A stretch of DNA of 64,000 bases from Gordius sp. MW1. Lineage: Eukaryota > Nematomorpha > Gordioida > Gordea > Gordiidae. Within the stretch, counting starts at the first letter, position 1, and every line of letters begins with the position of its first letter. The position numbers and the translations under genes are program-made. Shown piece by piece: positions 1,239-55,792 of this stretch. The stretch lies in contig OZ038533.1 in NCBI GenBank assembly GCA_964036665.1, positions 5,478,413 through 5,542,412 of the forward strand, written 5' to 3'. The notes below the pieces were generated by a model. The model was not told the origin of the DNA. It was given only the letters and a program-made list of their open reading frames with translations, and searched no databases.

Positions 1239-4082
1239 CTACCGTGCTTGGCTATCGTGCCTTCTACCCATTTGCTTGGTCCTAAAAACATACGTACCCA
1301 AACCAAGTCTTCTACGTTGAACATCCGCGGGTTCCCAGTCTCTACCCATTGTTGTGGTACGGTTTCCCTCTATACCTCCCAATCGGTTCGCATACGCCTT
1401 TTTAGCATCACCTCTGCTGGGCTTTATTGGTTGTGGGGTGTTTTGTAGAACGTTTTCTAAAAATCTACTTAGCCCTACTTCCGACTCGTTTCTAATAATG
1501 GCTTCTTTAATTAATCGTACATATCTTTCTGCCAGACCGTTAGACGCAGGATGGTAAGGAGCTGTCCATCGCTGATTAATCCCTCTCATCTTGCAAAAAT
1601 TCTGTAATTCCTGCCCTTTGAATTGCGGGCCGATATCTGATATTAACCATGGCGGATTTCCAAATCTAGCAAACGTTTCGGCAAGTTTTTTTATAATGGT
1701 GGTCGCTGTGGTGTCTTATTTAAACACTTCTACTCATTTTGAGCTATTGTTTACCATCACCAGGTATGACTTACCCTTGAGAGGACCCATGATATCGATA
1801 TGTACTTGAACCCACGGTTTATGGCTAGGTTGACACTCTATCAACGGTGCCTTCTTCGCCGCCGTTACAGTGTAATTGCAATTCCGGCACCCTTTCGCTA
1901 CGCTTAATAAGTCATCGTCGAGAGTAGGCCACCATATATACTGCCCCGCCACTTCTTGCATCCGCTTGATACCCACGTGGCCCCTATGTAATCTTTGGGG
2001 TACCGTTCCTCGTAACTTAAAAGGAATTAATATTCGTCGTCCTTTTTAAAATATTCTTTTGGCTTCGTGTCACTGGCAGGTGTTTTTCGTAGGAGCGTTT
2101 TAGCCCATACGCGACCATTGTGTTTTGTTTACCTCTAATCGACTCTTTAATTGTCGCAGCCCCGGGTCGTCCAAGTTGTGTTGTCTTACTACGTCCAATG
2201 ATATAAACGGATTCGTCGAGTCTTCTGGCATTTCCTCGCTAACAGGATACGCGTTTTCGTTCGGTTTTCTAGACAAGAAATGCCTCGTTTTCGGATCCCT
2301 TGTTGTACACAAACTTGGTCGTGTAGCCTGATACCATGAGCGCTCACCTAGTTAGACGTGATGACCATTGTTCCTTGCCCCTTTCGCTCTGATCGAATAT
2401 ATAACTAGGGGTCTATGATCCGTCATGATTGTAACGCTTCGTCCTTGATATATTCATTGAACTTTTTTAGTCCATAAACCACCGCAAGGGCCTCTCGTTC
2501 GATCGTCGAATACAGGCTTTCGCTATCGTTTAACGCTCTTGAAGCATAGGCCACCACTCTCCAATTCTCCCCTGGTGCTCGTTGCTGTAAGATGGCCCCT
2601 AACCCTGTACCAGAGGCGTCTACGACCAGGCCAGTCTCCCAATCTCCATTAAAGTATGCCACGGGGGCTTTAGTAAGCGCGGACTCGATGGCTTCGAATG
2701 CATCTTGTTGTTCTCCACCCCAGTGGTACAGCACGTTTTTTCATGAGTTTCTGAATCGGGTGCACGATTTTGGCGTAGTCCTTAATATACTTTGAAAAAT
2801 ATGCTGTTAACCCCAGGAACGATTTTATTTCATTATTGTTTGTTAAATTTTTCCACTGCTTGACCAGTTCGGCTTTATTGTCGTTGATTTGAATTCCCTT
2901 GTTACTTATTACATATCCCAAAAATGTTACTTCCTTCGCCCACAAGATGCTCTTGGAAATGTTTGGCACGAAAACCCATTTTTGTAACGTTTCTAATACT
3001 TTGAGTAACCGCTCGTTGTGGATTTCTTCCGTTTCCCCCGCGATTAGTATATTATCAATGTATACAGCTACCCCCTCCATGCCTCCTAATATCTGATCCA
3101 TTGTTTTTTGGAAAATCGCCGCGGCGCAATTTAAGCCAAAAGGCATTCGGTTAACTTTAAATAGGCCCTTGTGCGTGGAGATAGTCAATCGTTGGCTCGT
3201 TTCTGGACCTAATTCGAGTAGTAAGTACGCTTTCGTTAGGTCCAGCTTAGACAACACGCGTTATCGAGTTTATTTAACAAATCGTCGATTTTGGGTAAGG
3301 GGTACAACAATCCTTGAGCGTATTTGTTTATAGTAAACCGGTAATCAATACATAATCGAAAAGTCCCATCGCTTTTTTTCACGGGTACCACTGGACTGGC
3401 CCATCTTGAGAAATCGATCGGTTCTATCACCCCGTCTCTGACCCATTTGTCGAGCTCTTCTTCTACTTCTTTCTTCCACGCCATCGGCACCCTTCGTGCG
3501 GGGATAAATACGGGATCTATGCCCTCTTTTAAAGGTACTTCCACCGTTATTCCCTTGACTGCTTTTGAAAATTCGTTTAGCTGGCACTCCCATTGCTTGA
3601 TCACGTGCCGGATCGCGGACTTGGAATCCTTCGGTCTTTCTACGTAATTTACCGCGAACCGTTCCGCCGCAGCTCTGGAGTTCCAACGAATTCGTCGCCA
3701 AATTTCGGGCTCAAATTCTTGGATCCAATCGATCCCACACAATAGCGGCCCAGCTACGTCTGCTATCAATAACGACAGCTGTTTTCTCATGTCCCCCAAC
3801 ATCAGCTTGCACCTTGGCTACGATCTTTATTTCCTCCTGGCCCTACGCGTACACCGTCGGGACGGGCTCTTTGTTGCGTGAGATCTCCTTCGCCCATCTT
3901 CGTGCCGGTATTATCGATACCCTGGCGCGGGTATCTAAGATGCATTGGAATAATTCGTTATTAATATATATATCTACAGTTAACACATCTAAAGCATGTT
4001 TTAACCTGGGAATTCGGACCGGCCCAGGCCACGCGTCTCGTCCCGCCACTACGCTCCACGCCTCTTCGGACCCGTCTTGCAA
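1239..4082 (-). pseudogene. pol remnant (protease, RT, RNase H, integrase), gypsy element 1
   Basis: Reading on the minus strand, 4082-3843 is an aspartic-protease-like segment whose expected DTG is DTR. 3802-3236 and 3257-2670 form the reverse transcriptase in two frames. The fingers/palm block (SRWASPVVPVKKSDGTFRLC) is clear, but the catalytic YxDD is YIDN near 3055. 2734-2423 is RNase H with its first aspartate in VVDASGTGLGAIL. 1976-1734 carries the integrase zinc-binding and core start, and 1589-1239 holds the later core (PYHPASNGLAERYVRLIKE) before frame loss. Frameshifts separate the segments, so no intact polyprotein is encoded. Function is that of the Ty3/gypsy family; this copy is judged dead. 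Confidence 0.85.
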
Positions 4083-4568
4083 AGTGCCTAGCCCCCCGTG
4101 TATCGTCTCGGCCGTTAACGCCAGCTCGCGTAGGCGGTCCTATTTGATGTCATTTTCTGCCAACAGTCGCCTGTAAGCTTCTATCGCGTAATCCAATAAT
4201 GAATTGGTCGACTATTCTGTTCTGCAATTCTTCGTTTCCGAAGTTGCAGCTGTTAGCTCCGGCCTTGAGTCTATTAGCGTACGTGTCTATGAGTCTCTCC
4301 CTGGCCTTGTCAGACTTTTGAGATTTCATCCTCTTTGCCCGCGCGCATGAATTCCTTTAGAATAATTTTTTTAACCGATTTTTAGCTTCTTCATATGTAA
4401 TTCCTGTCAACTCTTGCGGTCTATAATCCTCTAGTATTAATTGGAATGCCTACCCATCAAGGCTGGTTAATAATAGAGCTGCTTTTTGCTCATCTGTCTA
4501 TTGCTCCTTAGGAATAGCTCAAATTGTGTTATAAAAGCGTCAATGTTAGCCGTTGTTTTATATTTCTG
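4083..4568 (-). pseudogene. gag remnant, gypsy element 1
   Basis: On the minus strand an ATG lies about 35 bp after the primer-binding site (complement of 4566-4568). The frame opens with ANIDAFITQFELFLRSN, a sequence style typical of gypsy gag N-termini, and then breaks at several stops. The later half is recognisable only in pieces. In an intact element Gag would form the particle shell. Confidence 0.6.
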
Positions 4569-12991: not shown

Positions 12992-13286
12992 GATAGCGAG
13001 GATATCAATAATTATATAACCGAGAGCTACGAAAACAAACCTGCCGCCAAGGTATTATCATCCATTCCAGACCATTCCATTAATCGACAGTGGCGAAACG
13101 AGTTAGAAAAGGAAGCACGAAAGGCTATGAATAATGCACGTTTATGGGATAGCATTAAGAGACATAGTAGACCGTTGTCGGCCTTTTTATACAAGAAGAG
13201 AGGTCGAACTAATTCCAGATTATTGGATATGGAAGATGGTGATCCCCTGAAATATATGATATATTCCCGAAACATGATCGCGTCAG
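12992..13286 (+). CDS. Shared exon of a CCAP-like neuropeptide precursor
   Basis: The exon starts after a canonical acceptor (CCTTGGGCATTACAG|GAT, phase 0) and stays open for 98 codons. It encodes an acidic/basic linker with several dibasic or multibasic sites (KR, KKR) and no membrane segment, as expected for the spacer part of a secreted prohormone. The signal peptide must lie in an upstream exon not seen here. At 13286 the sequence CAG|GTAATG is a good splice donor that leaves one base (G) of a codon. The acceptor at 20506 leaves two bases (AT), so the join is in frame (GAT, Asp). Reading through the donor also stays open. This supports one shared exon with two alternative C-termini; RNA evidence is lacking. 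Confidence 0.7.
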
Positions 13287-13435
13287 GTAATGAACCCAGA
13301 CGAGATGAGTCTGGTCTTGCTAAAAGACCGTTTTGTAACGGATTTTACGGTTGCCATAATTATCCTAAAAAGCTGACCCAAAACCCTGTGATTACTTTTA
13401 GAATGGACCCAGCCCAATCTCTGAAACGAGGTTAG
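13287..13435 (+). CDS. CCAP-like precursor, read-through C-terminus (peptide form 1)
   Basis: The frame of the preceding exon continues past the internal donor to a TAG at 13433-13435. It encodes a peptide released by KR: RPFCNGFYGCHN, followed by YPKK. The PFCN-x-F-x-GC loop matches CCAP (PFCNAFTGC-amide) in length and spacing, with five residues between the two cysteines, and also resembles the molluscan conoCAP peptides that extend past the second cysteine. There is no amidation Gly directly after the loop. The remaining tail ends in KRG. A hAT-like miniature element begins 35 bp after the stop, so the original 3' UTR is interrupted. It could belong to a separate gene, but the continuous frame argues for one gene. 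Confidence 0.65.
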
Positions 13436-13469
13436 ACAATTTTGTCTAAATATATTCTATAATATGTAT

Positions 13470-13910
13470 CAGAGACCAGCAATGCCCGGCCCGCTGCCCG
13501 AACCTGTCCGCCCCACCCCGGGCCGGGACCGGGCAATAGTCGTAAGTTTTGAATTTCGGGCGGGCACCATAACGAGATCGGGCAATTCGGGCTCAGTTTT
13601 GTTTTAAAAATAATGTATTGTATGACTTTTGTGTATATTTTGTCACTTTTTGATTTGATTTTATCATGTTTGTTAGTCCTAGTTCTCATTCAAGAAAAAT
13701 CAAAATTTATGAGACAATTTTTTTAAAAAATATAACGATATTAGTGCTAAAACATAGCATTTCGGGCCGGGCAGTTCGGGCAGTTCTGATAATACGGGCA
13801 TTGCCGGGCAGACACATTGAAAGGTATGAGCGGGCTTGGGCGGGCGGATTAATTATAAAATCGGATGGGGCCGGGTTTGGGCACAAACATTTTAACGAAT
13901 CTGACATCTG
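13470..13910. mobile_element. hAT-like MITE, CCGGGC-rich
   Basis: The element runs from CAGAGACCAGC to ACATCTG and is flanked by perfect 8-bp duplications ATATGTAT (13462-13469 and 13911-13918). It is rich in CCCGGCCCG/CGGGC words on both strands, unlike the surrounding AT-rich DNA. It resembles the larger element at 45828-47863, which also starts AGAGACC. Confidence 0.8.
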
Positions 13911-14864
13911 ATATGTATTCGCAACGTTTGTGATTATATTTCTGAGCATTACTTTAAGATTAGATCACCATATAAATAAGCCAACCGGCGGTCATTAGCT
14001 AGACTATATGCGAAAGCGAAACAAAAGTCTTTTTCAGAAGCATAAGTCCACACCCATTTAAAAAATTACAGTTGGACAGGAATGACAGATGGAGGACAGG
14101 ACAACCAAAACAAGCTCATAATTTGCATAGCAAATTATTTTATTAAAGTATGTACTTCAACAACACATTACTTGAATCCTATTTAAAGCCTTATAGGAAG
14201 AACCCTTAATCTTTTAAACAAAAACGGTCAATAAGGCTTTTATTAAACTAAAAAGTATCGCGATAAACTGATTAAATAAATATCTTTTTTTGGTTTTAGA
14301 TAGATAAACCTCAGTTATTTGAACAAGTCTATGACTTTATTATCTAGTGTATAAAGTTCGGAAAGAGGGTACGGTTTGTCAATATAAAAAATAAAATTTG
14401 ATAGTAATTTAGGACAAATAATATAACTGTTTTTAGCCTTAAATTTTTGTAAATATTACAGTTTAAAGCTACCTGAATGAGTTATTTCATAAAAGCATGT
14501 ACCTTATGACAAAATGAAAATTATTATTTAAAGTTTTCCTATAAGATTCTACAACCGACACGTTATGGGGGGGGGGGGTGAAATTAAAATTAAAAAATTA
14601 GAACGCTCTGATTTTTATAACCATAAAAAATTATGTATAAAACAAAACATCATTAAATTTCGTAGCATCTATATAGCAATTAATTTCATTGCAATCGAGA
14701 AAATTAAATTATGAATTTAACTCAATGATGGTTGTTAACACATAACATTGAGACAGACATTTAATGACATTTTGAATTTCTAGAACAGACACGTAATAAG
14801 TTATATTCACACATAACAAAGTGAGATAGCACACATTCATACATCACAAAATTAGATAACACAC
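13911..14864. other. Intronic AT-rich sequence, nothing recognised
   Basis: Apart from a G-run near 14567 I see no repeat ends or open frames. In the two-isoform model this is intron. Confidence 0.4.
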
Positions 14865-15273
14865 AGACAAGCTAAACATTCTCCACTTTTGGGTGACATT
14901 TTTCCTATCGTAAATACGCGTTGCTTAAACGTTCTCCTACCGAACGAAAATAAACAACGCATCCGCGTTCGTAAATTTTTACTTGCTTGATTACAAATAA
15001 ACAAACAACAAGCGCCATTTTTTAATTTTATTCCCATTATAGTTTCACCCATATCATTTTTTTGCTCAATTTAGTTATTGAGCTGTGAATTGTAAGAACA
15101 ATTACACATATTTTAAATATTTTTTAGATACAATATAGATATTATAAGCCTCAATGGAACTTTTAATGGTGGAAATGTTTAATATATTATCTTGCCTCTA
15201 AAATTTAAGAGAAGTTCAGGTTACAACAGAATAGAATTAAGAGAAGTTCAGGTTACAACAGAATAGAAAGTAA
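14865..15273 (-). repeat. Composite repeat; halves also at 16379-16610 and 19326-19483
   Basis: On the minus strand the first half (15273-15018) matches 16379-16610 and the second half (15022-14865) matches 19326-19483, both inverted relative to this copy. The second half has an open frame running through RCLFSFGRRTFKQRVFTIGK in this copy and in the 19.4-kb copy; I do not recognise it. At 15203-15268 a 34-bp segment containing AGAGAAGTTCAGGTTACAAC is tandemly duplicated. The family is probably an unclassified transposon. Confidence 0.6.
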
Positions 15274-15780
15274 TAATAATATTTTGTTAATTTATTTTGT
15301 ACTTAGGGAATAATCACATATTGAACCAAGCTCAAACAATATCTCCTGTGAACAAATCTCTACCACGTGTTTTGAATTTCAACTTATTTAAAATGATTTA
15401 TTTTTTATATAGAATAAACTATTTGTTATCATCATTTGTTAGTTCAAACATGGAAATTATTAAAACTGTATAAATTAAAAAGGTTCTATAAGCTCTGAAT
15501 CTTATAAGCAAGCCTACTAAAAATAGGAGGTCAATAGAGTAGAGATTAAAACATAGATATAAATTGATAACTACAAAACAGGTTTTATAAATCATTAATA
15601 TGCTACATTGTTATTAATAAGTACAAATAACCTAAAATTGCATAGCAATTAGTTGTTTAAATGAGTGGCACAATTTTAAATACTACTTTTTCATTAACAA
15701 TTTTGTATTTAGTTTAAAATTAATGTAACTGACAATTGATTTCTTTTCAACTCTTATCTGACCTTTCTATAGCTGATAAA

Positions 15781-15919
15781 CATGAGCGTAGCCAGCATTT
15801 AAATTAGAGGGGGCAAAAGCAATTTAAAAACTTTTCACAATTTTAGCTGTATTTTTGTAAAATTCTTGCATTTTTTTAGATTTAGAGGGTGGCAGTCATC
15901 CTCCCTAGCTATGCCCATG
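15781..15919. mobile_element. Small hAT-like MITE of the GCGTAGCCAG family
   Basis: The ends are CATGAGCGTAGCCAG and CTAGCTATGCCCATG (inverted), flanked by CTGATAAA and CTGATATA, an 8-bp duplication with one mismatch. It is only 139 bp long and has no coding. Confidence 0.7.
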
Positions 15920-16378
15920 CTGATATATGTATAATCTTATATTTAAAAAAAGATATTTAAATAGATATTAAAATGTGGACATGATTTAAAATTACTTTAT
16001 TAATAATGAGTATAATTTTTATATTACTTTTAATGTATTCTAAAATATAAAATTAATGCAGCATTAAATGTAATTACCAACAATTTGTTTTTCCCATCTC
16101 AAATCTAGCTTTATTATTATATAGGATACTTAAAATAGAATTTAAATAATATAAAAAAGTAGACATGAATCATGAAATACTTTATTAGTACAAAAAAGGT
16201 ATATATAAATTTGCTATATTGCTGTTAAAAAATACAATTAATTGGTAAATATATATTAATTTGAGTAAACACTTTCTTTATTTTCTCTCTTTGCAAGGGA
16301 TCAAAAAATTCCTTCTCTAAAATTTTATGTAAAAATCTTGATTATACATATAATAGTTCTTACCAATGCGCAAAATAG

Positions 16379-16610
16379 CACTTTCTATTCTGTTGTAACC
16401 TTGTAACCTGAACTTCGCTTAAATTTTAGAGGCAAGATAATATTTTTCACATTTCCACCATCAAAAGTTCCATTGAGGCTTATAATATCTATATGGTATC
16501 TAAAAAATATTTAAAATATGTGTAATTGTCTTACCATTGCATTTGCACAGCCCAATAACTAAATTGAGCAAAAAAATGATATGGGTGAAACTAAAATGGG
16601 AATAAAATCA
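16379..16610 (+). repeat. Inverted partial copy of the 15.0-15.3 kb repeat
   Basis: This is the reverse complement of about 15018-15273, lacking the 34-bp duplication and the half at 14865-15022. Confidence 0.65.
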
Positions 16611-17250
16611 CTTCTGCGCAAAATGTGGAAAGCTGGAAATACGGAAAACTAATCAAATGCATTGGCAATTTCGCAGAATATGTGTCAAAATAAAGCCGAT
16701 ATGTATGTTTCGACCATTTGGTACTTTATGTGTGATCACAAATAGTGTTCATATGTATAATTATATTAAGGTATTATATATATTTAAACTCATCTATATA
16801 AGGTATATAAGCATTAAATATATACATTTACACTTATGTAAGCACAATATATGATTATTATTATAGATTTATACCTATATACATAGCTACTTATACAGAC
16901 ACTTTAATAAATAATATTTTTAGTGGATTTGTAAGTACAAATAAGTTTGAAATGTGTTGCTTTATTACTTGAAAGAATCTATTTAAACAGAATTTGTTAG
17001 CACTTCAAATGCAAAAACATAATTATGTCAAGCTTATTAACTGAAGGTAACCATCAAAAATAAAATGTTTAGCATTTTAAAAGCAAAAATTTAATTGTGT
17101 CAAGCAGCAATCATTTTTCACATCTTTATATGTTGTTTATTACCTGAGGGGATCTATCTAAATCAAAGTTTCTTAGCATTTTAAAAGCAAAAACCATATG
17201 TCAAGCAACAATAATTTTTCACAAACTTACAACTGTAGGATATTAAAATG

Positions 17251-17286
17251 CGAGTTGACAATAGAAATGTAGCGGATTGTCAACTC
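17251..17286. repeat. Perfect 11-bp stem-loop
   Basis: GAGTTGACAAT and ATTGTCAACTC form a perfect inverted repeat with a 13-base loop, at the edge of the 53-bp repeats that follow. Confidence 0.5.
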
Positions 17287-17359
17287 CATATGTTATTATT
17301 ATTACATCATTTCCACAAATCGCTTCATCCAAATATTGCATCATTATTCAAAACAAATC

Positions 17360-17540
17360 CATTCGCTTATACTTATCATCGCGTATATTAAATATAACAT
17401 CATTACCGTATTTGCTTATACTTATCATCGCGTATATCAAATATTATACTTATCATCGTATATCAAATATAGCATCGTTACCATATTCGCTTATACTTAT
17501 CATCGCGTATATCAAATACAACAACATTACCATACTAATC
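17360..17540. repeat. Short tandem repeat with CTTATACTTATCATCGCGTA
   Basis: The motif CTTATACTTATCATCGCGTA recurs at irregular spacing with AT-rich spacers. Apparent open frames through it on the plus strand are a product of the repeat. Confidence 0.65.
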
Positions 17541-18589
17541 ATTACCTACTTTTCTTAAAGTTAGACAACCTTATGTTATATTACTTTAAGGAATCTATCT
17601 AAATCAAAATTTGTTAGTATTTTGAAAGCAAAAACCTAATTATGTCAAGCAACAATCATTTTCACACACTTATGTTTTATATTACTTGAAGAAAAATATC
17701 TAAATCAAAATAATACCAATTAAATGCTTTGACCATTTATCACCTTATGGATCACAAATAACATTCAGATGTATAATTATATTAAGGTATTATATATATT
17801 TATACCCATGTATATATTTTTTGGTATATTAGCATTGAATATATACATTTACACTTATATAAGTATGATATATGATTATAAATATAGATTTTTATATTTA
17901 CACCTATATAAAGACACTTAATTAACTGTAATACATGTAATATGTACATATTATATAAGATTTTTAATTGAAATGCACAAATAAGTTTGAAATATGTTGC
18001 TTTATTATTTAAAGAAATCTATCTAAATCAAAATTTGTTAGCATTTTATAAACAAAAACTTAATTACGTCAAACTTATTAATTGAAGATAACTATCTAAA
18101 TCAAGATATTTAGCATTGTAAAAAAACCTAAGTATGTCAAGCAACAATCATTTTTCACACACTTATATGCTGTTTTATTACTTGAAGAGAACTATCTAAA
18201 TCAAAATATTTAGCATCAAAAACCTAATTATGTCAAGCAACAATCATTCTCACAAACTTATATGCTGTTTTTTTACTTGAAGAGAACTATCTAAATCAAA
18301 ATTTTTAGCATTTTAAAAGCAAAAACCTAATTATGTCAAGCATCAATCATTCACAGACTTATATGTTATTTTATTAGTAAAAAGAGAGACACCTTAAAAA
18401 TTTTAGAATCTAGAAATTAAAAAAACCTAACAGATGGTAAGTTATGCCTATTTAATATAAAAATCTGGGCAATAAAAGAGGGACTTTATTTGGGATGATG
18501 CATCTCCCAATAGTATTTGAGAGACCCAGAAACTTTAAAATCCAAACATGATAAACTAATTTACTAGATAGTAAGTTCTATATAGACAT

Positions 18590-19080
18590 ATAATATATAG
18601 AGTACCTAAATATTATTTAAAAGATTAAAATTATGTATATATATATATATATATAAGCATAAATAAATTTGCATAGCATTATATATAGTTCTATATGTAC
18701 AAGTGAATATATATAATGAATAGAAATATTTATAGTATTTCAATACACTATGGCTATTTTATAAAAAATATAAAAATAAATATAGTACTTTTAAACTATC
18801 CTTAATATAAATGTATATATAAATATAATACTTTAATATTATTATTCATATTTTATATGTATCTCTAAAATTATAATCATATATGGTGCTTATATAATTG
18901 TAAATGTATATCTTTAATGTTTATATACTTAGGAATATATAGATGGGTTTAAATATATGTAATAACGATATAATTATGGAATATTATAATGTATGAAATA
19001 TACAGCACATATTTATATATATAATATATTATATATATTGTATATATTTAATTATGTAATTAACTCTTTTTAATTTAATA
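18590..19080. repeat. TA-rich low-complexity tract
   Basis: Runs of TATATA and near-palindromic AT words dominate. No gene or terminal repeat is visible. Confidence 0.5.
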
Positions 19081-19126
19081 TTTTAGATCATATATCTTGT
19101 TTACTTTCGTTATTATCGGTTTTCCA

Positions 19127-19292
19127 GGTGGCCCGTCAACTCGCCGAAAACTATCTCGCCGAAAATAATGTCCCCCAGCTAAAAAAGGTCCCCAAATTTG
19201 TGATTGGTTGATGGGTTAGGGTTAATAAGCTGGGGGACATTTTTCGCACCAATCAGAAAATGTCCCCTGTTTCGGCGAGTTGATAGGGCACT
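19127..19292. mobile_element. MITE with 9-bp target duplication
   Basis: Inverted ends (CAACTCGCCGAAA and TTTCGGCGAGTTG) enclose a second internal inverted pair (CCCCCAGCT and AGCTGGGGG). The flanks GGTTTTCCA at 19118-19126 and 19293-19301 are identical, 9 bp. It is 166 bp long and non-coding. Confidence 0.8.
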
Positions 19293-19325
19293 GGTTTTCC
19301 ACATTATGCGTCAGATTCAATAAAA

Positions 19326-19483
19326 TAAAATGGCGCATTGTTGTTTGTTTATTTGTAATCAGGCAAGGAAAAATTTACGAACGCGGATGCGTTGTTTATT
19401 TTCGTTCGGTAGGAGAACGTTTAAGCAACGCGTTTTTACGATAGGAAAAATGTCACCCAAAAGTGGAGAATGTTTAGCCTGAT
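19326..19483 (+). repeat. Inverted partial copy of the 14.9-15.0 kb repeat
   Basis: This matches the complement of 14865-15022, including the open frame with RCLFSFGRRTFKQRVFTIGK. It ends where the 125-bp tandem repeat begins. Confidence 0.65.
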
Positions 19484-19490
19484 TCTAACA

Positions 19491-19835
19491 CACAGATTCT
19501 TCATATATTTTACATATTATATAATTATATTTTATTATACATATTTTTAGTATATTCAATAAAACTTCCATAATTTACAATAGCACACATTCATACATCA
19601 CATAATTAGATAACACACAGATTCTTCATATATTTTACATATTATATAATTATATTTCATTATACATATTTTTAGTATATTCAATAAAACTTCCATAATT
19701 TACAATAGCACACATTCATACATCACATAATTAGATAACACACAGATTCTTCATATATTTTACATATTATATAATTATATTTCATTATGCATATTTTTAG
19801 TATATTCAATAAAACTTCCATAATTTACATATCAT
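19491..19835. repeat. 125-bp tandem repeat, nearly three units
   Basis: The word CACAGATTCT occurs at 19491, 19616 and 19741, exactly 125 bp apart, with near-identical sequence between; the last unit is incomplete. Part of the unit (TAGCACACATTCATACATCA) also occurs at 14828, beside the composite repeat, so the tandem unit may be that element's terminal part. Confidence 0.85.
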
Positions 19836-20506
19836 TGGTATTTCTTATATCAAAATAAAAGTTGGTCCAGCCGAAGAATAAATTTTTACATAATGTCCCA
19901 CAAAATTATTATAAGTCTTGAGCGGATTTAAAAGTTATCTGAATTCTTTTCAAAGTGGCATTAGCCTTTTCCAAACAAATGTGATAAAATCCATAATCAG
20001 CATTGAATCTCACAAATTTCATTTAATCTGATATTTAATTAATTACATGAATAAATTGATGAAAGTCAAGTGCTTTTTTTCCCCAAATGTACCTAGTAAT
20101 GTAACAAAAAAGTTATTAATATAGAATCATTTCCTGCAAATTATTTCGTTTTGGATATTTAAATATTATGATAAACCTTTGATCTTTTATAAAAAAATAT
20201 TCATGATATAACTATTAGGCTTTATCAATTAATTTTTATAACAAATTAACAAGCGAGTTTTGAAGTAGAAAAATACGAGTAACAGAACCCGAGGTATCTA
20301 CAAAAGTACTTTATCATAATGTTTATAATTTAATAATAAAGTGTTTTTTATTTATAATGAATGGAAATAATTTCTACGGTTAAGGGGGAGGGAATTTTTT
20401 GTCATTATTCTCCCCCTTCTCCGTGCCTGGTATACATTACTAGAACTAAAAGAAAAATTAATTCATCCTATAATTTCAAACGCATTTAAAATTTTATTTT
20501 ATCTAG

Positions 20507-20745
20507 ATTACGATGGATTTAGTCGCAAGAGATTGATTGGAAAAGGGCAAGACAATTTTAACACTGTCTTGAACAAGAAATTTAAACGCAGTTTTGAAGA
20601 TTATCCGGAATTAAATGATCAAGAAGATTGGCTCGGGCAACGGACTTATATTCCCGAATCCGAACCGGTCAAGAGCTATTATAAAGTCAAGCGTCGAGTT
20701 AAAACACCATTTTGCAATTCTTTCACCGGCTGCAATAGCGGCTGA
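20507..20745 (+). CDS. CCAP-like precursor, spliced terminal exon (peptide form 2)
   Basis: A T-rich tract and acceptor (ATTTTATCTAG|ATTACG) precede an open frame of 78 complete codons and a TGA. The encoded tail has RKR, KK and KRR cleavage sites and ends TPFCNSFTGCNSG. The last Gly can donate an amide, giving a Cys-loop peptide ending in Ser-amide. Eight of nine residues match CCAP itself (Ala replaced by Ser). The exon phase (two leftover bases) fits the donor at 13286 but not the phase-0 acceptor side of the first exon, so it is downstream of the shared exon rather than a mutually exclusive replacement of it. AATAAA at 20815-20820 is a likely polyadenylation signal. Confidence 0.7.
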
Positions 20746-21177
20746 TAAATACTTCTTCATTCTTTATTCCGCTTTTTAATCTAAATGTCTTACTTATACT
20801 TAATTCCATTTTATAATAAATCACAAATTGTTAACTGCACACCGTACCGTTATGTACAAAAATTCTTTATTGTTCCATCATATATCCTCGCTACATTTTA
20901 ACACCAAAACCTAATGTAACTTCGACAAATTGCCAGGTGTAATATCCATTTCCACGACGCTCAAAAAAATCGACATGCCAATCAAAAATTTTTCTTAAAA
21001 TTTGAAATTAAATTTCTATAGGCTAACACAGTCGTCAATCAACAGAACAGATGTTCTCAATTAATAATCTATAACATCATAAAAAATATTGATTATAATT
21101 CAACCATGGTTTACAAGCTAAATTAAAATTTATCATATTTAGAACAATGCATTTAATTATCTTTTGATATGTGTTTT
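20746..21177. other. Downstream of the CCAP-like exon, no further gene
   Basis: Beyond the poly(A) signal there is only AT-rich sequence until the dispersed repeats begin at about 21178. Confidence 0.45.
20815..20820 (+). terminator. Poly(A) signal of the CCAP-like gene
   Basis: AATAAA lies 70 bp after the TGA of the terminal exon, the usual distance for a short animal 3' UTR. Confidence 0.55.
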
Positions 21178-27326: not shown

Positions 27327-30300
27327 TCATTGCAAGGCCATAGGATATACAACATTTTTGGTTTTACCCTCAGGCGCGAAAATAAATAGGTTGCTAGGTG
27401 TGCCTACACGGGAGCAAGCTACATATAGTTGGCCATGTGAAAAGCATGGATTTTCTAGATTTAAACCAACAACGGTGCTTTATTGATTGTCATTGCGAAT
27501 GCTAGGCGTACAGGAAACTGTACGCGCTTGAATTCGAAGGGCACATCGGTGGGGATCATGGGGATGCTTGGGATCATCACGTCCTCGCCTTTATACGTTC
27601 CGCTGATTATAGTAGCCGCAATTACGTTTGGACGCAGTTGTTTTACGGCAAGTCTGGTGCCATTACACAACTTCGGGGGGTGTAAGTTACGCAGGAGTAT
27701 TATAGGGCAACCAGGTTTTAAGGTTAATTTATGTGGTAGGAGACCCGAAGGTGTTAACGAATTCAAAAATTCAATTGGATAATTTACAATTTGATCGGTT
27801 TCTATAACCGTATCAATAGAGCTGTAAGAGCTGTAAGTAAAAGGATCACCTGGAATGTGCACTTGAATACGATCATTCATACGGGTGACGGCTGCATTTG
27901 TTGGCGCTAATATTGCGCGTTCCCGGAGCCATGTGTGATTGATGTAGTGCGTTGCAATGTCGGGGAAAACCATAGTTTCAACCGCCTCAGGCGATGGTAG
28001 TAGGTGACAAAAGGTTGTTGGAAAGGTGGTTTCATTTGGAGACGGGGTAAAAGGAAATGAACCATTCCCCAAAGCTAGGAGTTGTTGTGCAAATGGGGAC
28101 GTATCCGGGAGTAAATGCACGCGCTTGTTCGTAGTAAGCGTGAGGATCGTAAACTTCCACCAAAGATGTGACGCCTTCAGACAGGCATCCAGCTCATCAG
28201 CCGGTGTTGATCTTGGGATAACAGGTAATGTTTGTCGAAAATCACCGGCTAGCAATAATAAGGCCCCCCCCCATAGGGAAGTCAATTTTCCGCAAATCTC
28301 TGAGAGTACGATCTAATGCTTCGAGCGCTTTTTTCGCCATCGTACATTCATCCCAAATTATGATTGAGCATGTCTTTAGGACTGTCCCACTTCCCGAGTT
28401 CCGACTGATATTACAGATAGGTTTTTCAATCTGATGCAGATTTAGGGGGAGCTGGAAAGTAGAATGCGCCGTGCGGCCTCCATCGAGTAACGTCGCCGCT
28501 ATACCCGATAATGCCACTGCTCTAGCTCGTTATTGGCGCGAAATTTTGCCATACCGGTGCCGCCGGGAGCATCAAGGAAAAGCAGACCGCCATTACCGGT
28601 TGAGGCGTACTGGAGTACGGTGTCGTACGCGGTTTTCTGGTCGACGGTTAAAATAAGTTCGTTTTCCTGTATAATGCTGCGCTGATGGTTAACATCGTAT
28701 TGCAGTTCGAGCCATACGTCTTTCGGTTGTACATCATGGCTGGTGCGGAGGGGTGTAGGTAAACCAAATTGGCATAGCATTTTATTGCTTATGGACATAC
28801 ATTGGTCCTCCAATAATATAAGAGCACGGTTGAAGATGTCATCGGAATAGGAAATATCTAATGCCGGATTTGCTCTCCGAATGCGCAAAAGAACGTCCTC
28901 GCTGAGGCTTTCCTTGTGCCGGTGCCACAGGTCTGATGGATCTGACGGGGCGCAGGTGGTCACAATGAGCGCAAATAAATTACGGAGTTGGTAGGGGAGA
29001 CATATGAGCGACGCCTCCTCTAAAGTCGTATCCCAATGCTGATTATTTTCCAGGAGCTGAAGTTCAAGACAGGCTTGTCTATACGTGGCGCACACGGTGC
29101 CTGAGATCGTTATCAGAGCCTGAAATGATGTCGGGCCTCGGACATTGTGAAGCAGCATGCGCAAATAAAAACATTCGGCCTGATTGGGATTGATTGTATA
29201 CATACGTCCCAAAGCATCAGCCACATGGATGTACGGATAGCCTGCAACGACAGGTCCCTGTTTTCTCCGTTGAAACACCTTCCGTGCCGCGTTCCAAGTG
29301 TAATACGTCGGAATCTCATGGTATAGCAGGGTTTGCGCGAAAGCGTCCGTTTGACACAGCTGGAAAAGGGCTGTCAATGTGGTATTGGGGGGGGGGGGGT
29401 GTTCCACTTTGTGAACGGCGGTCGCCGGAGTGAAGAAGACGCGCTGGCCATTTTCTAAATGAACCGCGAGATGTACTACGGGTGGGTAACGTTCGTGAAT
29501 GGGGAATGCGAGGATTCGCCAAACAGTCTCATTGCTGCTGATATATCGACCCGTTTGAAATTGGGTAATTTCATCCGGGTTAGAACGCGCTAGGCCAAAA
29601 ACTGCCATATCGCTGCCTTTGTTGACATATTTGCATATGTACTTGATAGACTTTACGGAATTGCAGTACTCTACGTTTATATGAGCCGTGAACATTTTTG
29701 CGAGTAGGGAAGAGTAAGGGAATATCCAGGTGTTGTCAATTTCGACTGGGGCATTTTTTACCTGTATTGTGCAGGTGTGACCTCCCTCGCCTGGTGCACG
29801 GCGTCTATATAGTGGGTAGCCGTCGACGCCAGATTTCGTTTCTTGAGTCAGGCGTTTCGGATAACATTTAGAGCATTTACCTTCTTTCATGCACGGGGAC
29901 GCGTTATTTATACCGCCGCAAGGGCCGTGAATCATATGCCGAGGAACAGTGGTAAACAAAACGGGATCGGTTTGCGGATCGGGTAGTTTTGCACAAATAA
30001 TGCTATCTGCGACGGGTAAATGGTGTCTCGGAGCCAAATTAGAATATGAGCATGAGGTAGCCCTCTTTTCTGCCATTTAATCGAGTACATCCAACGTAGT
30101 TTGCCCGAATATATGAGATTTAGCTATAAGATCAATAAGGCAACGAAGTTTTAGGGGGAAAACACGGGCGGTCAGATCGTGACGATGCGATGGTTTCTGG
30201 CCCGCCAACAGTAAATCCGTAATTTCGGGCCAGGCTGGATTGCAGGTGAAAGTTATAAACAGAGTAGGGCAGCCGAATTTACGTACATATGACATCGCGT

Positions 30301-31968
30301 CCTGCGTATATTCATGCATGTGTCGGGGACTTCCCGTATACGTAGCAGGAAGGATGACCATTCGACCAACATCGGACGTTACCATCCTTCGCAATGGCAT
30401 CGCGCAGGTGAATATATTGCTCGGCCCGAAGTAATCCCTGATTAAGGCGGATGTAAAGGAGGCGCTCGCTCTCGATCGGCATACATGTCGACAACATATT
30501 GATGAAATAGTTGCCGGCACCGCAAGATGTGGTTAGGTTGGTTTGCGCGTACCATTAGCCGATATGCGTAAAAATTCATCGCCGATACCTAGTAGACAAA
30601 TACACGGATCATATAGGGGCACAAGCACAAAGAATGATACGCTTACCTTTTTTTGTGTAGGAGCTCGCGTAGTGGAATCTAGGTTAGATTTAGGTGGTAG
30701 CCATCCTCTCCTTGGCAACAATATGGGGTATTGCAGGGCATCGTATGATCTGTGCGTGGCATCGATGTTCTTGAGGGTTTCATCTCTTCGGCTTATAATA
30801 ATATCGCGACGCTCAAATTCGCTTCCAACCATGACGATCGCTACTTCGTCTATCGTAGGCGCGTTAAAGCGTCTTTCATGTTCACCAGGTGGCGTCCTAT
30901 CAGCCTTGATAACGACCTTGTAATCGTCAGTGGGCATGTGCTCCAACACGAATTTGAACAGGTTAACCAAATGATTTTTAGCGTGGAATAACTGCTGCAA
31001 CGCGGTGACTATATCTCGGCGGATAACGGGATGCATCCTGCACCGTTGATCAGTTTCAGCGTCGCCCATGAAATATTTGAAGAAAGCCGTGGGCAGCATC
31101 AGGTACCGGGAGAAGGGACCCTATTAGATGGTAAATTTGCCCTTGTACTCTAAATGTGGGCATAAAACCACCATCATTAATAATGCGCGTTGCTCCAAGA
31201 TGTCATTTGAAAGCAAGCGTTGTATTGTCGGATGTGTTCGATGAAAGTGTTTGGACACTGGGTAGTACCAGAAACGTAACTTAAAAGCGGTTCCGGTGGC
31301 TCTTCCATAGGTGGTAAGTTGACCTTCCCATTCAAACAACACATTCCACCATGTTCTGTTCGGAAACGTAGAGCCTGACAATGTACACACAGTGTATCCA
31401 TTCTGCCAATTGTGACGGAGGGATGGAGTGTGTAATCATACGCCGAATCATACGCGAAAGCGGCTAAGGTTAAATTGGCTCCCGAGCTATTTCGTGTAAG
31501 CCTGGCTCAGTTCCTAGGGTCGGCCAGCCGGGCGTTGCGCTTTTCGCCAGTTTCAGCTGTTCTCGACGTGGAGGCTCGGTTCCTAAGTGCGGCAAGCCGG
31601 GCGTTGCGCTTTTCGCCAGTTTCAGCTGTTCTCGACCTGGAGGCTCGGTCCCTAAGGTCGGCCAGCCGGGCGTTGCGCTTTACGCCAGTTTCCGTTGCTA
31701 TCGACGTGGAGGCTCGGTTCCTAATTGCGGCAAGCCGGGCGTTGCGCTTTTCGTCAGTATCAGCTGTTCTCGACGTGGAGGCTCGGTCCCAAAGTCGGCC
31801 AGCCGGGCGTTGCGCTTTCCGCCAGTTTCCGCTGCTCTCGACGTGGAGGCTCGGTTCCTAAGTGCAGCAAGACGGGCGTTGCGCTTTTCGTCAGTTTCAT
31901 CTGCTCTGGTCTTCTTTGCGGTTTTTGTAGTACGTAGAATTTGTTAAAGTTTTTTTCCGCCGGGGCAT
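27327..31968 (-). pseudogene. Helitron Rep/PIF1-type helicase, frameshifted
   Basis: The probable start is ATG at 31966-31968 (MPRRKK), followed by six 23-residue repeats. Then comes a Cys-rich N-domain with HPSVTIGRMDTLCVHCQALRF at about 31420. The Rep domain has the HUH motif in PHAHIL (HAH codons, 30046-30054) and the two-tyrosine motif in KYICKYVNKG near 29630. The helicase has Walker A remnant DAPGGTG near 28560, IIWDECTMA near 28350, AGDFRQTLPV near 28230 and the final SHGQLYVACSRVG near 27420, ending at TGA 27327-27329. At least six frame breaks and a stop near 31510 disable it. In the family, Rep nicks and joins single-stranded DNA and the helicase unwinds it during rolling-circle transposition. 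Confidence 0.9.
31510..31925 (-). repeat. 69-bp tandem repeat coding a 23-residue repeat, six units
   Basis: GCGTTGCGC occurs at 31532, 31601, 31670, 31739, 31807 and 31876, spaced 69, 69, 69, 68 and 69. On the minus strand the frame gives repeats around AETGEKRNARLAALRNRAS, in frame with the following N-domain except for one TGA near 31510. Comparable ExRxxRLA repeats are known at the N-terminus of animal Helitron helicases. The long plus-strand open frame is its antisense. Confidence 0.8.
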
Positions 31969-39202: not shown

Positions 39203-41683
39203 TTATTCCGAACCATACTGGATCTCCAAAATTAAATTCCCTATAACACGCTTTTCGGTCATGGTACTCTTGTGTTTAGATAATCTCTCCTTCCACTTTT
39301 CTTGCGGATCAGGTCGAATAAGGTCCAACGCTGCTGTCCTTACTCTTCTTCCCAGCAACAATTCCCCCGGAGCTTTACCCGTGGTTGCCTTAGGTGTATT
39401 CCTGTATGTCTTAATTATTTGTTGAAGGCATAGTTCTTTCTCTCCCCCTGATTTTCTTGTTGCCCAGTATCTTGATTTTAGCGTTCGAATCATCCTCTCA
39501 GCTAATCCATTTGTTTTGGGGTGGTATGGAGTAGATGTTACGTGCTTAATGTTATTGTTGTCACAAAATTTTGTGAATTTTTCATCGAAAAATTGTGGTT
39601 CATTATTTGATACTATTTGCAAGGGAATACCGAACCGCAAAATTAATTTCGTTATTGCCTCACAATTTGTGGTCCTTTAATCGACGATAGTGTGGCTACT
39701 TCCACCCATTTCAATAATGCATCAATTAAAATCAACCAATAATTTCCTTCGACATGTCCGTAAAAATCTAAATGGACTCGATCCCAAGGACGGTCCGGTA
39801 CGGACCAAGAATATAAGGGAACTTCTTGTTCGGCTTGTCGGCCTTCTTGACAACCGTCACATTCATACAAACAAATCAATACTCTTGTCCATTTCCGGCC
39901 ACCAGCCATAATATCGGGCTAAATTAAGCATTCCTGTGATCCCGGGGTGTCCTTGGTGTAATATTTTTAAAACCAACTTTTATAAGTTCCTCGGTATTAT
40001 TAACCGATTGCTACGCAATAATAATCCATCTTTAAATGACAGTTCCTTCCTGTGATTGTAGTACGTTTTCATGTCAAAACGGCATTTTTTTAAATCCAAC
40101 CGCCATTCTCGGTTGATCGCTAAAATTAATTCACGACACAAAGGATCTTGTTTAATTGATGTTTTTAGCATTTTTTATCTAACTTTAATTCATCTATGAG
40201 TAGTCCTACGTGATTGACCTGATCCGTCTCAAGGTATTTTGGATCTGGCAGTCTCGACAATGCATCAGCGCATTGATTGTTTTTTCCTGATCGGTATTTT
40301 ATGTCGTAATGATATCCATTTAAAAATAAAGCCCACCGAATTAATCTATTATTGATCACTTTCGGTAAATCCCGATGATTTCCCGAAATCTTTCTAGAGG
40401 TTTGTAGTCCGTCATCAATATAAATTTTCGACCACGTACGTATTGATCAAATTTTTGAACACCGAACACAATGGCTCGCGCTTCCCGATCAATTGTAGAG
40501 TATCGTTTTTCGGACTCGCTTAACGTCCTGGATGCGTATGCAATAGCTCTTTCAGACCCGTCTGCATATAAGTGTGATAGTACAGCACCTACACCAGTTT
40601 CAGAAGCATCTACCGCTAGGTATAACCAATGAGGTTGAATACGGTACCAATGTATTGGACGTTGAAAGCATCAGTTTAACATCGTTAAAAATCTTCTGCT
40701 CTTTAGTCGTCCATTTCCCACCTATTGATGAGCCCGTCAATGCATGCAAGGGTGCGCATTTATCGTTAGCATTGGGATGAACCTTTCCTGATAATTAACT
40801 AGTCCTAAAAAGGAACGTAGTTCTTTTTTTCTTTGAAAATAACAATGGCTTCCACTAGCTCTTGAGTCGGGTGGACCCCTGTTGCATCGATCATGTCCCA
40901 AGTATTTAACTGAATTTTGGAAAAATTTAACCTTTTCCTTCTTTGCTTTTAGACCAGCGTCTTATACCCTCTTTAGTACTTCGTTCAGATTTTGCAGGTG
41001 GTCATTTTCATTTACCTCTGTAACTATGATATCGTCGAGAAGTACGCCGGTATAGGGACCCCTCTAATAATTCCTCCATATAACGTTGGAATAAATTTGG
41101 TGCTTTCGAAAGTTTAAATGGAAGAGGTCTATATCGATAGTAACCTAAATTTGTTGCGATAGTGAGATACTGCCGCGACTTTTCTTCGACCTTCATCTGA
41201 AGATAGGCATCACGTAAGTCAATTACTGTAAATTTCTGCCCTCCTGCGATCTTCAGAATTAAATCGTCAAATGTCGGAAATAGATGGTTGTTTAAAGTTA
41301 GGAAGGGATTGATAGTAACTCTAAAATCGCAGCAGATTCTAATGGAATTATTTGATTTTAATACATTTACTATTGGAATTGCCCATGTTATTGGTGTTGT
41401 GTTGCTGCAGGATTAACATGTTCAATTATATCTTCGTCCAATAATCTTTAATTTCCTCTTTAACCTTATTCCTTAAAGGAAAAGAAACTCTTTGTGCAGG
41501 AAATGCTATGGCTTTGGCTTCTTCCTTTACAAAAAGATTTAACTCATAGTCTTTAATACAGCCAGTGCCATCACTGAACACATTGGTATACTTTTCAACT
41601 AATTCCTCTTCTATGTTTTTAGGTTTTTCTTTTATGGCATAAATCTTAACTTGATGAGGAAGTTTTAGGTTAAAAGCTTGCAT
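39203..41683 (-). pseudogene. pol (RT, RNase H, integrase), gypsy element 2
   Basis: 41683-41426 is the segment before RT, with the typical FPAQRVSFPLRNKVKEE. 41196-41008 is RT palm in broken frame, with the catalytic stretch disrupted. 40359-40165 is the end of RNase H/connection (YRSGKNNQCADALSRLPDP). 39909-39652 holds the integrase zinc-binding end and core start (RVHLDFYGHVEGNYW), and 39640-39203 the rest of the core. There the second catalytic Asp region reads SNNEPQF instead of the usual SDN, while the Glu lies in GLAERMIRTLKS. Several frameshifts inactivate it. Confidence 0.85.
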
Positions 41684-41754
41684 CCAATTTAACCCAAAGA
41701 TGGGGTCTTCTTCTACAGTTGTTACACTAGCTGTTAATTTTAAAGTTTTATTGT

Positions 41755-42465
41755 TTAAATTGACATAGACTTGTGTTTCTCCACATATAGGAACTGGATG
41801 TTTCTAAAAGCTTTTATCTTGGGGCATGGTGTTAATTGAGGTGTATTTAAAATGTTGTAGATATTCTTGTTAATTACAGATACTGATGAGCCAGTATCAT
41901 ATGACATTTTGAAAATTTTCTGATTTATCCTTACATGGATGTATGGTTTAAGGTGAGTTACATAATTTAAGTCATAAAATTTTCCAATTGTATTAATAAT
42001 CTGGTTTACTTTGTTTGAGGTTTTGCACATTTTTGCAAGGTGTCCTCTATGATGACATATGGAACATTCTTTTAAAATTGCTGGACATTGCTTCATTGCA
42101 TGTGACTTACCACATCTATAGCAATTCCTTATGAATGATTGTTAATGTTCATCCTTTTTTGTAGCAAATTGTTTTATTGATTGCTTATGCTTTTGATTTA
42201 AGTACATTGAATTTGGTTTTTTATAATTTGAATTTTGTATAAATCTTGTGATGTGTTAACTTTTATCATCTCCATTGATTCAGCTAGATTAAATATATCA
42301 TTAAATGTTACCACATCACCCTCTTTCTTTAAAGCTTCAGGCCATCTCGTCCTGCCATCAATTTCCAATGATATGTTTTGATACCCATTTAACAGTTGGT
42401 GTTTAAAATTAGGTATTCCCACAGACTTCATTTTCAAAATAGGTTTTTTTCCTTGACCGCGCCAA
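41755..42465 (-). pseudogene. gag/nucleocapsid and protease, gypsy element 2
   Basis: 42470-42198 is a gag segment. 42096-41755 contains a CCHC zinc knuckle (CSICHHRGHLAKMC) followed by the aspartic protease with an intact active site (YDTGSSVSVI). A frame break separates the two. In the family these give the particle protein and the processing protease. Confidence 0.8.
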
Positions 42466-49865: not shown

Positions 49866-52023
49866 TCATCGAAATTGGTCCCACATGGTGGGGTTTGTTT
49901 TGATGAGTCTCTTCCATCTTGACCGGGTGAGTGCCATGTCTTGACTAATGTCTTTAGTTTTCATAACTTTATCGACTTGCCCTTTCCACGTGACACGGGG
50001 TCGTCCTCTTCCTCTCTTCCCCGGTATTTCCATGTCTAGCACTTTTCGATTTACGTCATCCGTGTCCCTTCTTAGTATATGCCCATACCACCTTAGCCGA
50101 TTTTCGTTAATCATGTCCACCATAGGTTGAATACCCATTTTTGTCATGAGAAAGTCATTTGTCATATGATCGAGCTTAGTATACCCCAAGCTCCAACGTA
50201 TCATTCTCATCTATGGGGCTTGTAATAGCTTTCCTTCCGTGGTGTTTAATGCCCATGTTTCACTTCCATACAGTAACACCGGTCTTACGATGGATTTGTA
50301 AGCTTTGCTCTTCAACCATATTGGCATTTTCTTGTCCCACTTTACATCGGATATACTTCGCCATTTAAGCCAACTTTTATGAATCCGGGCATTGACTTCC
50401 GTTGCGCAACCTCCCTCTTGATGTAGCATCGAGCCGAGGTATGTAAACCTGTCTACTTTTGGGTACTTTAGATGGTCATCCAGGGATGGGGTGTCTGTAC
50501 CGTTCATTTCCATGTATACGTTTTTGATCGATGACCTTTAAACCATATCCAGCCAAGCGCTTTGACCACTTTTCGGCTTTTTCGAATACTTTCTCCCTTG
50601 TTTCCTCGCATAGTACTATATCATCGGCATATAGCATACGCCATGGCGATGACTTTTGAATGTCCCTCGTTATCGTGTCTATAATTATAATAAATAAAAA
50701 GGGACTTAAAGCAGAGCCTTGATGTAATCCAATATTAACCCGAAAAGGTTTAGAGTCTCCAACTGTCGTCCTAACGCAAGAGTTTGAGGCTTCATAGATA
50801 TATTTCATAAGCCGTATATATGCGTCAGGGATATTTTGTTTCCTCAGGCACCACCATATTAAATCGCGGGGGACCGCGTCATAAGCTTTTTCCAAGTCGA
50901 TAAAAACCATATGTAGGTCTTTCCTTTTTTCACCATACTTATCCATTATTTGTCTTAGTGCGAAGATTGGGCGATTGTGGATTTGCCGGCCACAAATCCG
51001 ATTTAGTTAGCCGATATTTCCACCTCGTAAGCCTTGTTACTAAGATCCTTTCCATAAGTTTCAAGGAGTGGTAAATTAGCTTGATACCTCTGTAATTGCC
51101 ACAGTCTTAAGGGTCTTCTTTGCCTTTAAATAAGGGTATAATCGTGCTGCTCTCCATTGATTAGGAATACGCTCTTCTACCAATATCTTGTTAAGGAGGT
51201 TCGTCATGGTGGTGACTCCTTCTTCACGACATCCGAGCAATGCTTCCATAGGTATTCCATCTGGGCCATTTGCTTTTCCTATTTGCATCTTGTTCATTTG
51301 TGTCCTAACTTCTGAAAGAGTTCGACCATACTTATATTTGGCTCAATTTTGTGAAGGGAATTTCTGTCATTTGCAATATTCATAAGTTTCTTAAAATATC
51401 GTTTCTACCTTTCCATCACTTCTTTCGGCTTGAATAAGGTTTGACCCTTCTCGTTTTTGACTATTTTAAGAATTCCGACATCGCGACTTTTCTTCTCCCT
51501 TATCTTGGCCAATTTGTACATAATCCGATCGCCCCCTTTATGATCCAATTTGTTTGCCATCTCGGTGTACGCGGCATTCTTCGCTTTTGCAACCGCCTTT
51601 TTTGCGGCCCTCTTTGCGTCCCTATACACTTGATAATCCTCCGACTTTTTTGATTTATGCCACCGTCTATATAGATTTTTCTTTCTTGCGATAAAATCCC
51701 TGACCGATTTATCCCACCACCATAGTTCCCTATCCATAGCTTTGCCTCCTTTGGTCCGTCCTAGAACACGAATCGCTGTTTCCTTAATGTCCTTAGATAG
51801 CGCCTCCCAATCGTCGTCTACGTCCCTTTGCAACTTTCTTGCACCCAAGAGTGAGTAGGCTTTTTGATGCTATTCTTCGTTCGTCGACGTATGCTTTAGC
51901 CTTTCGTATCAAATTCGAGATTCATATACCTTTCTTCTTTCGGGAAATACTCTTCTGTCAAGATCCATAACAAGGGGACGATGTTGCCTGGCGATTTCTT
52001 CTCCCGGTATTACATCTTGAACT
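49866..52023 (-). pseudogene. RTE-clade non-LTR retrotransposon, 5'-truncated
   Basis: Reading on the minus strand: 52023-51960 is the end of the apurinic endonuclease-like domain (VIPGEEIARQHRPLVMD). 51848-51405 is the linker. 51297-51076 and 50946-50476 form RT with FIDLEKAYDAVPRDL, GLHQGSALSPFLF and the intact active site MLYADDIVL. 50513-50211 follows with YLGSMLHQEGG, and 50210-49866 is the C-terminal segment with RLRWYGHILRRD and KRGRGRPRVTW. Frame breaks near 51300-51400, 50950-51070, 50500 and 50211 inactivate it. Most of the endonuclease is missing, the usual 5' truncation. Confidence 0.9.
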
Positions 52024-53051: not shown

Positions 53052-53170
53052 GTGATTATCCCGAGTAAGGAGCAAATTTTCAAACTTCCCGATTTTGACG
53101 CAGATATTCCAGAGCTTGGTTTGCAAGGATAGAAACATTTCGTCTGCGCAAAGTAAGCAATCCAAGTAAG

Positions 53171-55562: not shown

Positions 55563-55792
55563 AGCCCCGACCAACTTTCGTCGCTTAAAGTTTCAGATTT
55601 TCCTATTCCCGGTTCAAATTTGACGATTAAATGTGACGCCTCTTGAGCCACACCACGCCCGGTTATACCTACATCAATGACGTGGAAGGTATTCGACCTC
55701 ATACATAATCTCGCACATCCCGGAATCCGTGGAACCCTTAAGCTGGTGGCTAAACGATTCGTATGACCACGGATGAATAAAGACGTACGGTC

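Follow-up and report, generated by a model that had tools for sequence, protein, structure and literature searches.

Can one precursor gene supply two different Cys-loop peptides of the crustacean cardioactive peptide (CCAP) type by changing its C-terminal end? The question is raised by a locus of the hairworm Gordius sp. MW1 in a stretch of 64,000 nucleotides of contig OZ038533.1 (positions 5,478,413 to 5,542,412 of the forward strand), here called the window; positions are window positions unless a contig is named. A first-pass annotation had proposed such a switch at a single splice donor. We found a coding exon (exon A) whose reading frame can run on into either of two loop-coding parts, an in-frame extension with one loop (cassette A, the A loop) and a terminal exon with another (exon B, the B loop), and we found the locus in three copies on the same contig. 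Judged from these sequences, it is probably a precursor gene of the CCAP family in which a common 5' part serves two loops encoded apart from each other, between which the donor at the end of exon A (donor 1) would choose.

In this preferred reading, the shared 5' part would be formed by joining a signal-peptide exon (exon 1) to the propeptide exon A. Use of donor 1 would join exon A to exon B, and the precursor would then end in the B loop, the proper CCAP, whose terminal glycine could serve for amidation; for copy 1, which lies in the window, the processed product is predicted as VKTPFCNSFTGCNS-amide. When donor 1 is skipped, a cassette of 144 bases would be retained and a non-amidated A loop would be produced by cleavage at its dibasic sites.

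Exon layout and reading frames

Exon A comprises 98 codons plus one base, and its protein begins with DSEDINNY. The donor CAG/GTAATG at its end and the single leftover base lie where the first-pass annotation had placed them. The acceptor of exon B contributes two bases, which complete a GAT codon with the leftover base, and the proposed splice is thus in frame. The joined frame reads DYDGFSRKR at the junction and finishes with KRRVKTPFCNSFTGCNSG before the TGA, the loop end being PFCNSFTGCNSG. If donor 1 is ignored, the frame of exon A stays open for 49 more codons, counting the split codon, up to a TAG; the extension translates as GNEPRRDESGLAKRPFCNGFYGCHNYPKKLTQNPVITFRMDPAQSLKRG, within which LAKRPFCNGFYGCHNYPKK lies, and it contains the KR-released second loop that had been predicted. 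The last GT ahead of this stop forms a possible second donor (donor 2), which leaves the same single base as donor 1, and a splice from it to exon B would likewise be in frame. A six-frame scan of the window for FCN-x-[FY]-x-GC peptides returned two, the A and B loops, and no third loop; exon B is indeed the only other exon of the window with a PFCN-x-F-x-GC peptide. The features of the locus, together with repeats and broken retrotransposon frames in the window, are collected in Table 1.

Table 1. Features of the CCAP-like locus and other features of the window (a slash marks a splice cut)
Feature	Position	Strand	Remarks
Exon 1 (signal-like), MKTVLFLNITFVIYIYLVSSLLQQ/GTAAGT	C7:5467717 (window coordinate -10695)		ends in phase 0
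Shared coding exon A (propeptide)	12992..13286	+	acceptor ...GGCATTACAG/GAT, phase 0
Donor 1, CAG/GTAATG	13284..13292, cut after 13286	+	phase 1; identical in 3 copies
Cassette A	13287..13435	+	in-frame extension of exon A; KR-PFCNGFYGCHNYP-KK at 13322-13372; TAG 13433-13435
Possible donor 2, GAG/GTTAGA	13428..13436, cut after 13430	+	phase 1; 144 bases 3' of donor 1
Interspersed repeat piece	13792..13917	+	in intron, or in 3' untranslated region of the A end
Terminal exon B	20507..20745	+	acceptor ATCTAG/AT (20506/20507); TGA 20743-20745
AATAAA polyadenylation signal of exon B	20815..20820	+	
Broken retrotransposon frame	1239-4176	-	these four frames mostly by eye
Broken retrotransposon frame	39203-42141	-	
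Broken retrotransposon frame	53099-56548	+	
Broken retrotransposon frame	61674-63745	+	

The frame of exon A holds no ATG between its acceptor and the preceding in-frame stop. We scanned 31 kb upstream for exons that combine an ATG with a hydrophobic stretch and with a phase-0 donor matching at least 6/9 positions. Eight rows passed, and the exon ending in MKTVLFLNITFVIYIYLVSSLLQQ had the sole 9/9 donor among them. It lies 10.7 kb 5' of the window and 23.7 kb 5' of exon A, its signal peptide was called from hydropathy, and it is present in all three copies with at most one amino-acid change. The phases allow exon 1 to be joined to exon A, and exon A to exon B through either donor 1 or donor 2. 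Exon 1 is out of phase with exon B, and the B loop therefore has to be preceded by exon A or by some other exon of phase 1.

Loop peptides and conservation among three tandem copies

Exon A, taken together with its extension, occurs three times on contig C7, which carries the window (at 5491404, 5594403 and 5688569, with protein identities of 100, 99 and 92%), and so does exon B, each time 3' of an exon A (5498918, 5607836 and 5690952; 100, 95 and 87%). The copy search scores only the best candidates, and here all three were scored. Exon 1, exon A, donor 1, the A loop and the acceptor of exon B are retained in every copy; exon B keeps its frame in two of three, and its AATAAA in two of three (72 and 76 bases beyond the first base of the stop codon in copies 1 and 3, with TATAAA in copy 2). 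Across 29 kb of flanking DNA, the identity of copies 1 and 2 is 97.6%. Of six non-coding stretches near the exons, five show differences of 0.3-1.3% between these copies, and the one that follows the B stop shows 5.8%. The pair may have arisen by recent duplication, or may represent two haplotypes that were assembled in tandem; copy 3 is clearly a separate copy. The gene lies in a tandem segmental duplication (C7:5464659-5525573, 5567618-5624999 and about 5655000-5700000) in which the exon A copies are 103 and 94 kb apart and long insertions differ from copy to copy.

The A loop is PFCNGFYGC in all three copies and is flanked by KR and KK in each. The B loop is PFCNSFTGC in copies 1 and 2, past a stop in copy 2, and PFCNAFTGC in copy 3. 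In copy 3 it is preceded by KR and followed by the chain end, giving the terminus KR-PFCNAFTGCSNG / KRPFCNAFTGCSNG; in copies 1 and 2 a T stands before the P, and the closest dibasic site is a KRR three residues earlier, with VKT after it. The residues NSG, NNG or SNG and then a stop follow the B loop, and an amide would thus be possible two residues past the loop. The glycine that directly follows the second Cys in classical CCAPs is found in neither loop.

We compared the predicted products with the Pfam CCAP family (PF11105), whose gathering cut-off is 27 bits. Both forms of copy 1 matched the family and scored under the cut-off (A form, 24.9 bits, E 2.1e-5; B form, 23.2 bits, E 7e-5). For copy 3, the B form (30.5 bits) and a form with both loops (45.7 bits) scored above it and the A form below (25.0). 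An exon-by-exon scan of the genome with the same family returned a single place, exon B of copy 3, at 24.2 bits and below the cut-off; it missed all A loops and the B loops of copies 1 and 2. A search of the PDB sequences with the copy 1 B form gave no match up to E 1.

A degenerate DNA pattern of the loop matched 12 places in the 212 Mb assembly, six of them within the three gene copies, compared with one place for the reversed control; the pattern therefore occurs above chance. When we read the frames of the other six places, none was precursor-like: in one the loop is interrupted by a stop, another lies in a 38-codon frame without dibasic pairs at the loop, and the remaining four sit in frames 14 to 32 codons long, of which one places RR immediately ahead of the F. 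The CCAP loop pattern with shorter spacing, CCNTTYTGYAAYNNNTWYGGNTGY, was found at 0 places genome-wide.

Eight matching blocks give 12,142 aligned columns between copies 1 and 3, and 7.1% of these differ. The longest unchanged run between them, 127 bases, ends 14 bases into exon 1. The second longest covers 112 bases (13283-13394), from one base before donor 1 through the A loop, and the third covers 83 bases inside exon A (13153-13235). At the 7.1% rate, the 87 bases that run from the donor codon up to the KK site would all stay unchanged with a probability of 0.0016. Because the second-longest invariant run spans both donor 1 and the A loop, we conclude that the A loop is very probably translated.

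Exon B is under less constraint. Its longest invariant run, 59 bases (20614-20672), lies outside the loop, in the spacer around EDYPELNDQEDWLGQ; the spacer peptide there may have a role of its own.

Splice donors and the choice between explanations

The strength of donor 1 is consistent with its use. Its pairing with U1 (-8.1 kcal/mol) is the best of any GT in the first 700 bases counted from the start of exon A in all three copies, and only 1.2% of the 3,216 plus-strand GTs of the window pair as well. Donor 2 pairs at -5.7 kcal/mol in copies 1 and 2 and at -4.1 in copy 3, where it reads AAG/GTTCGA. With both donors in the same phase, the preferred reading can be divided by the fate of the cassette transcript, and we graded this and the other splicing models by judgement, not by computation. 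That the cassette transcript ends at the in-frame A stop, giving a two-ended switch, is a tentative prediction that we regard as a serious possibility. That it goes on from donor 2 into exon B, making the cassette optional and the product one with both loops, we regard as possible and somewhat more doubtful. The switch proposed by the first-pass annotation therefore survives in part: one gene has its upstream exons in common for two loops that lie in different 3' parts, and an in-frame splice from A to B is possible, whereas nothing forces a product to carry exactly one loop, because donor 2 could carry A-loop transcripts into exon B.

Several observations weigh against the preferred reading. 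The A loop is followed by HNYPKK, without a glycine; to our knowledge CCAPs have an amidation glycine, and the A loop is unlike them in this. Exon B of copy 2 is broken by an internal TAA, and in copy 3 the TAG of the A loop is changed and the frame ends 27 bases further on. Exon A holds other phase-1 GTs, namely ATG/GTGATC or GTG/GTGATC at offset 247 (-5.2 kcal/mol) and, in copy 3, AAG/GTGGTG at offset 244 (-5.9). No AATAAA was found within 700 bases 3' of the A-loop stop in any of the three copies; what follows the stop is AATATA, TATAAA and similar variants, with one ATTAAA at 678 bases in copy 2. The conservation of donor 1 is inseparable from that of the peptide, as the donor lies within constrained codons. 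At a uniform rate, an unchanged run of at least 114 bases would arise somewhere in the aligned blocks with a probability of 0.16; this test, which names no place beforehand, is not significant, and we therefore put weight only on the test at the named place. Lastly, exon B carries 10 non-synonymous and three synonymous changes between copies 1 and 3 (pN 0.052, pS 0.066), which indicates that it evolves almost freely between them, the changes being too few for a decision by dN/dS. Of these points, the absent AATAAA and the lost A stop of copy 3, together with donor 2, weaken a strict two-ended switch.

Donor 2 also opens the way to a constant precursor with two loops, in which splicing always takes donor 2, donor 1 acts as a decoy inside codons, and both loops are present in every product. 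The matching phase of donor 2 and its place as the last GT before the stop agree with this explanation, as does the retention of its GT in copy 3 despite the lost TAG. The two-loop product of copy 3 has the high Pfam score given above, and precursors with several CCAP loops are known, as in Theba pisana (PMC4408573). We nevertheless find a constant two-loop precursor rather unlikely: donor 2 pairs with U1 less well than donor 1 in all three copies, it is outpaired in copy 3 by three other phase-1 GTs of exon A as well, and the cassette end beside it holds all four cassette changes between copies 1 and 3, each of them non-synonymous and within the last 12 codons.

The state of exon B suggests another explanation, that copy 1 makes the A loop only, that exon B has been decaying in copies 1 and 2 since the duplication, and that copy 3 makes the B-loop CCAP, the tandem copies thus dividing the work between them. 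The internal stop and lost AATAAA of copy 2 fit such decay, and so does the T that replaces R before PFCN in copy 1, where copy 3 has an intact KR-PFCNAFTGC; the A loop, by comparison, is identical in all three copies. Against this, exon B of copy 1 retains its frame, acceptor, loop and AATAAA, and copies 1 and 2 could be two haplotypes of one locus, and we consider the explanation distinctly unlikely. Independent or nested transcripts, with exon B served by its own upstream exons, we consider scarcely likely at all; they share the small remaining probability with any arrangement beyond these models. The first-pass annotation had named a separate signal-peptide exon for each loop as grounds for abandoning the switch, and our scan by hydropathy and donor score found no such exon for B that passed in all three copies. 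The intron of copies 1 and 2 holds one weak candidate, an ATG-plus-GT with two overlapping ATGs and a donor of 6/9, whereas nothing passed in the 1,943 bases between the cassette end and exon B of copy 3; exon 1, moreover, is in the wrong phase for B.

The preferred reading, a shared 5' part with donor 1 choosing between two loops, can be extended into a fuller picture. A single donor would set whether the product has an amidated, CCAP-like end or a loop of another type without an amide, the tandem copies would be starting to share these ends among themselves, and the PFCNAFTGC of copy 3 could act on receptors of the arthropod host. We consider this combination highly improbable.

Known loop precursors and other elements of the assembly

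Like arthropod CCAP (PF11105, PFCNAFTGC-amide), the hairworm locus would encode a secreted precursor whose PFCNxFxGC loops lie close to dibasic sites, and exon B of copy 3 carries the identical nine-residue core. Unlike the arthropod gene, which codes its loop at one place, the hairworm gene codes loops at two; its B loop is two residues short of a glycine, and its A loop has none available. The B loop also stands at the C terminus of the chain, unlike in the arthropod layout. In Carcinus maenas, one CCAP cluster gives three transcripts that differ at the precursor C terminus (PMC6158917). The variants there share the same nonapeptide and differ in the related peptides, whereas in the hairworm the loop itself would differ. 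Extended CCAPs such as TFCNAFTGCQa are reported from Collembola (PMC4770511).

More than one CCAP loop per gene is a feature shared with molluscan CCAPs and conoCAPs. ConoCAP-a, -b and -c are encoded in one precursor. All three occur in one species of cone snail, conoCAP-a being PFCNSFGCYN-amide (PMC5100318), and each of two transcripts of Theba pisana carries three CCAP moieties (PMC4408573). ConoCAP-a resembles the hairworm B loop in having residues between the loop and the amide. The molluscan loops lie together in one precursor, whereas the hairworm loops are in different exons and the cassette is possibly optional.

Different Cys-loop peptides from one gene are known from other families. 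In arthropods, alternative last exons of CNMamide yield different Cys-loop peptides (PMC4888303), and two calcitonins come from one gene (PMC11673531). These systems are alike in placing alternative exons after shared first exons, and they differ in family and in using whole alternative exons, where the hairworm has a donor inside the exon of the first loop and a distant second exon. The first-pass annotation knew of no description of such a switch. The CNMamide case shows that it is not new in kind, and what stands is that we met no description of a hairworm CCAP gene, or of a switch between CCAP loops, among the open-access papers listed, mostly judged from abstracts. The loop arrangement is real at the sequence level; as an alternative-ended loop precursor it would be known in kind, and as a variant for CCAP loops it would be new.

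Nematomorpha are the sister group of nematodes. CCAP signalling is reported missing in Caenorhabditis elegans (PMC6660194). A hairworm CCAP gene would mean that this sister lineage kept the signal, and its absence would then be a loss within nematodes. If true, the switch would be a compact case of one donor setting the loop hormone of a cell, with three copies to compare.

The interspersed repeat between cassette A and exon B is MITE-like (resembling a miniature inverted-repeat transposable element) in our judgement. A query of 13792-13942 gave 41 matches among the best 40 of 431 genome candidates scored, three of them in the copies of the CCAP-like gene and 38 elsewhere at 80-86%. On the minus strand, 27461-31120 holds frames belonging to a Helitron-like element, with PIF1-like helicase domains at 27461-28312 (PF05970, PF21530); its 525-codon frame at 28499-30076 has no Pfam match. 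We tested four pieces of the broken retrotransposon frames for retrotransposon domains. Two scored above the cut-off (RNase H at 54954-55562 and reverse transcriptase at 63017-63745), an integrase piece at 39203-39676 fell just under it, and the piece at 3236-3817 had no retrotransposon-domain match. LINE-like reverse transcriptase frames lie at 49866-51869 on the minus strand, with PF00078 in 50476-51006.

The mitochondrial contig (L037) has cox1 open in translation table 5 and cox2, read by eye, on the same strand; a long open nad1-like frame, also read by eye, lies on the minus strand before cox1, past a non-coding stretch. Perfect inverted repeats of 108, 95 and 53 bases all lie outside cox1, and arms of the 108- and 53-base repeats fall inside the nad1-like frame. 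Hairworm mitochondrial DNA is described as having the same gene order, and hairpins in coding sequence though not in cox1 or cox2 (PMC10380579, PMC6649704); these features led us to take the genome as that of a hairworm. RNA-seq libraries are described for the hairworms Gordionus alpestris and Parachordodes pustulosus (PMC10380579). In the non-coding stretch before cox1, an 11-base unit recurs in tandem as 21 exact copies (1106-1336). Nuclear contigs of the assembly (G000) carry pieces of mitochondrial cox1, at C8:2829490-2830827 and in 22 further rows, which are either transfers to the nucleus or assembly errors. One nuclear piece is full length and scores 408 bits, compared with 410 for the mitochondrial copy.

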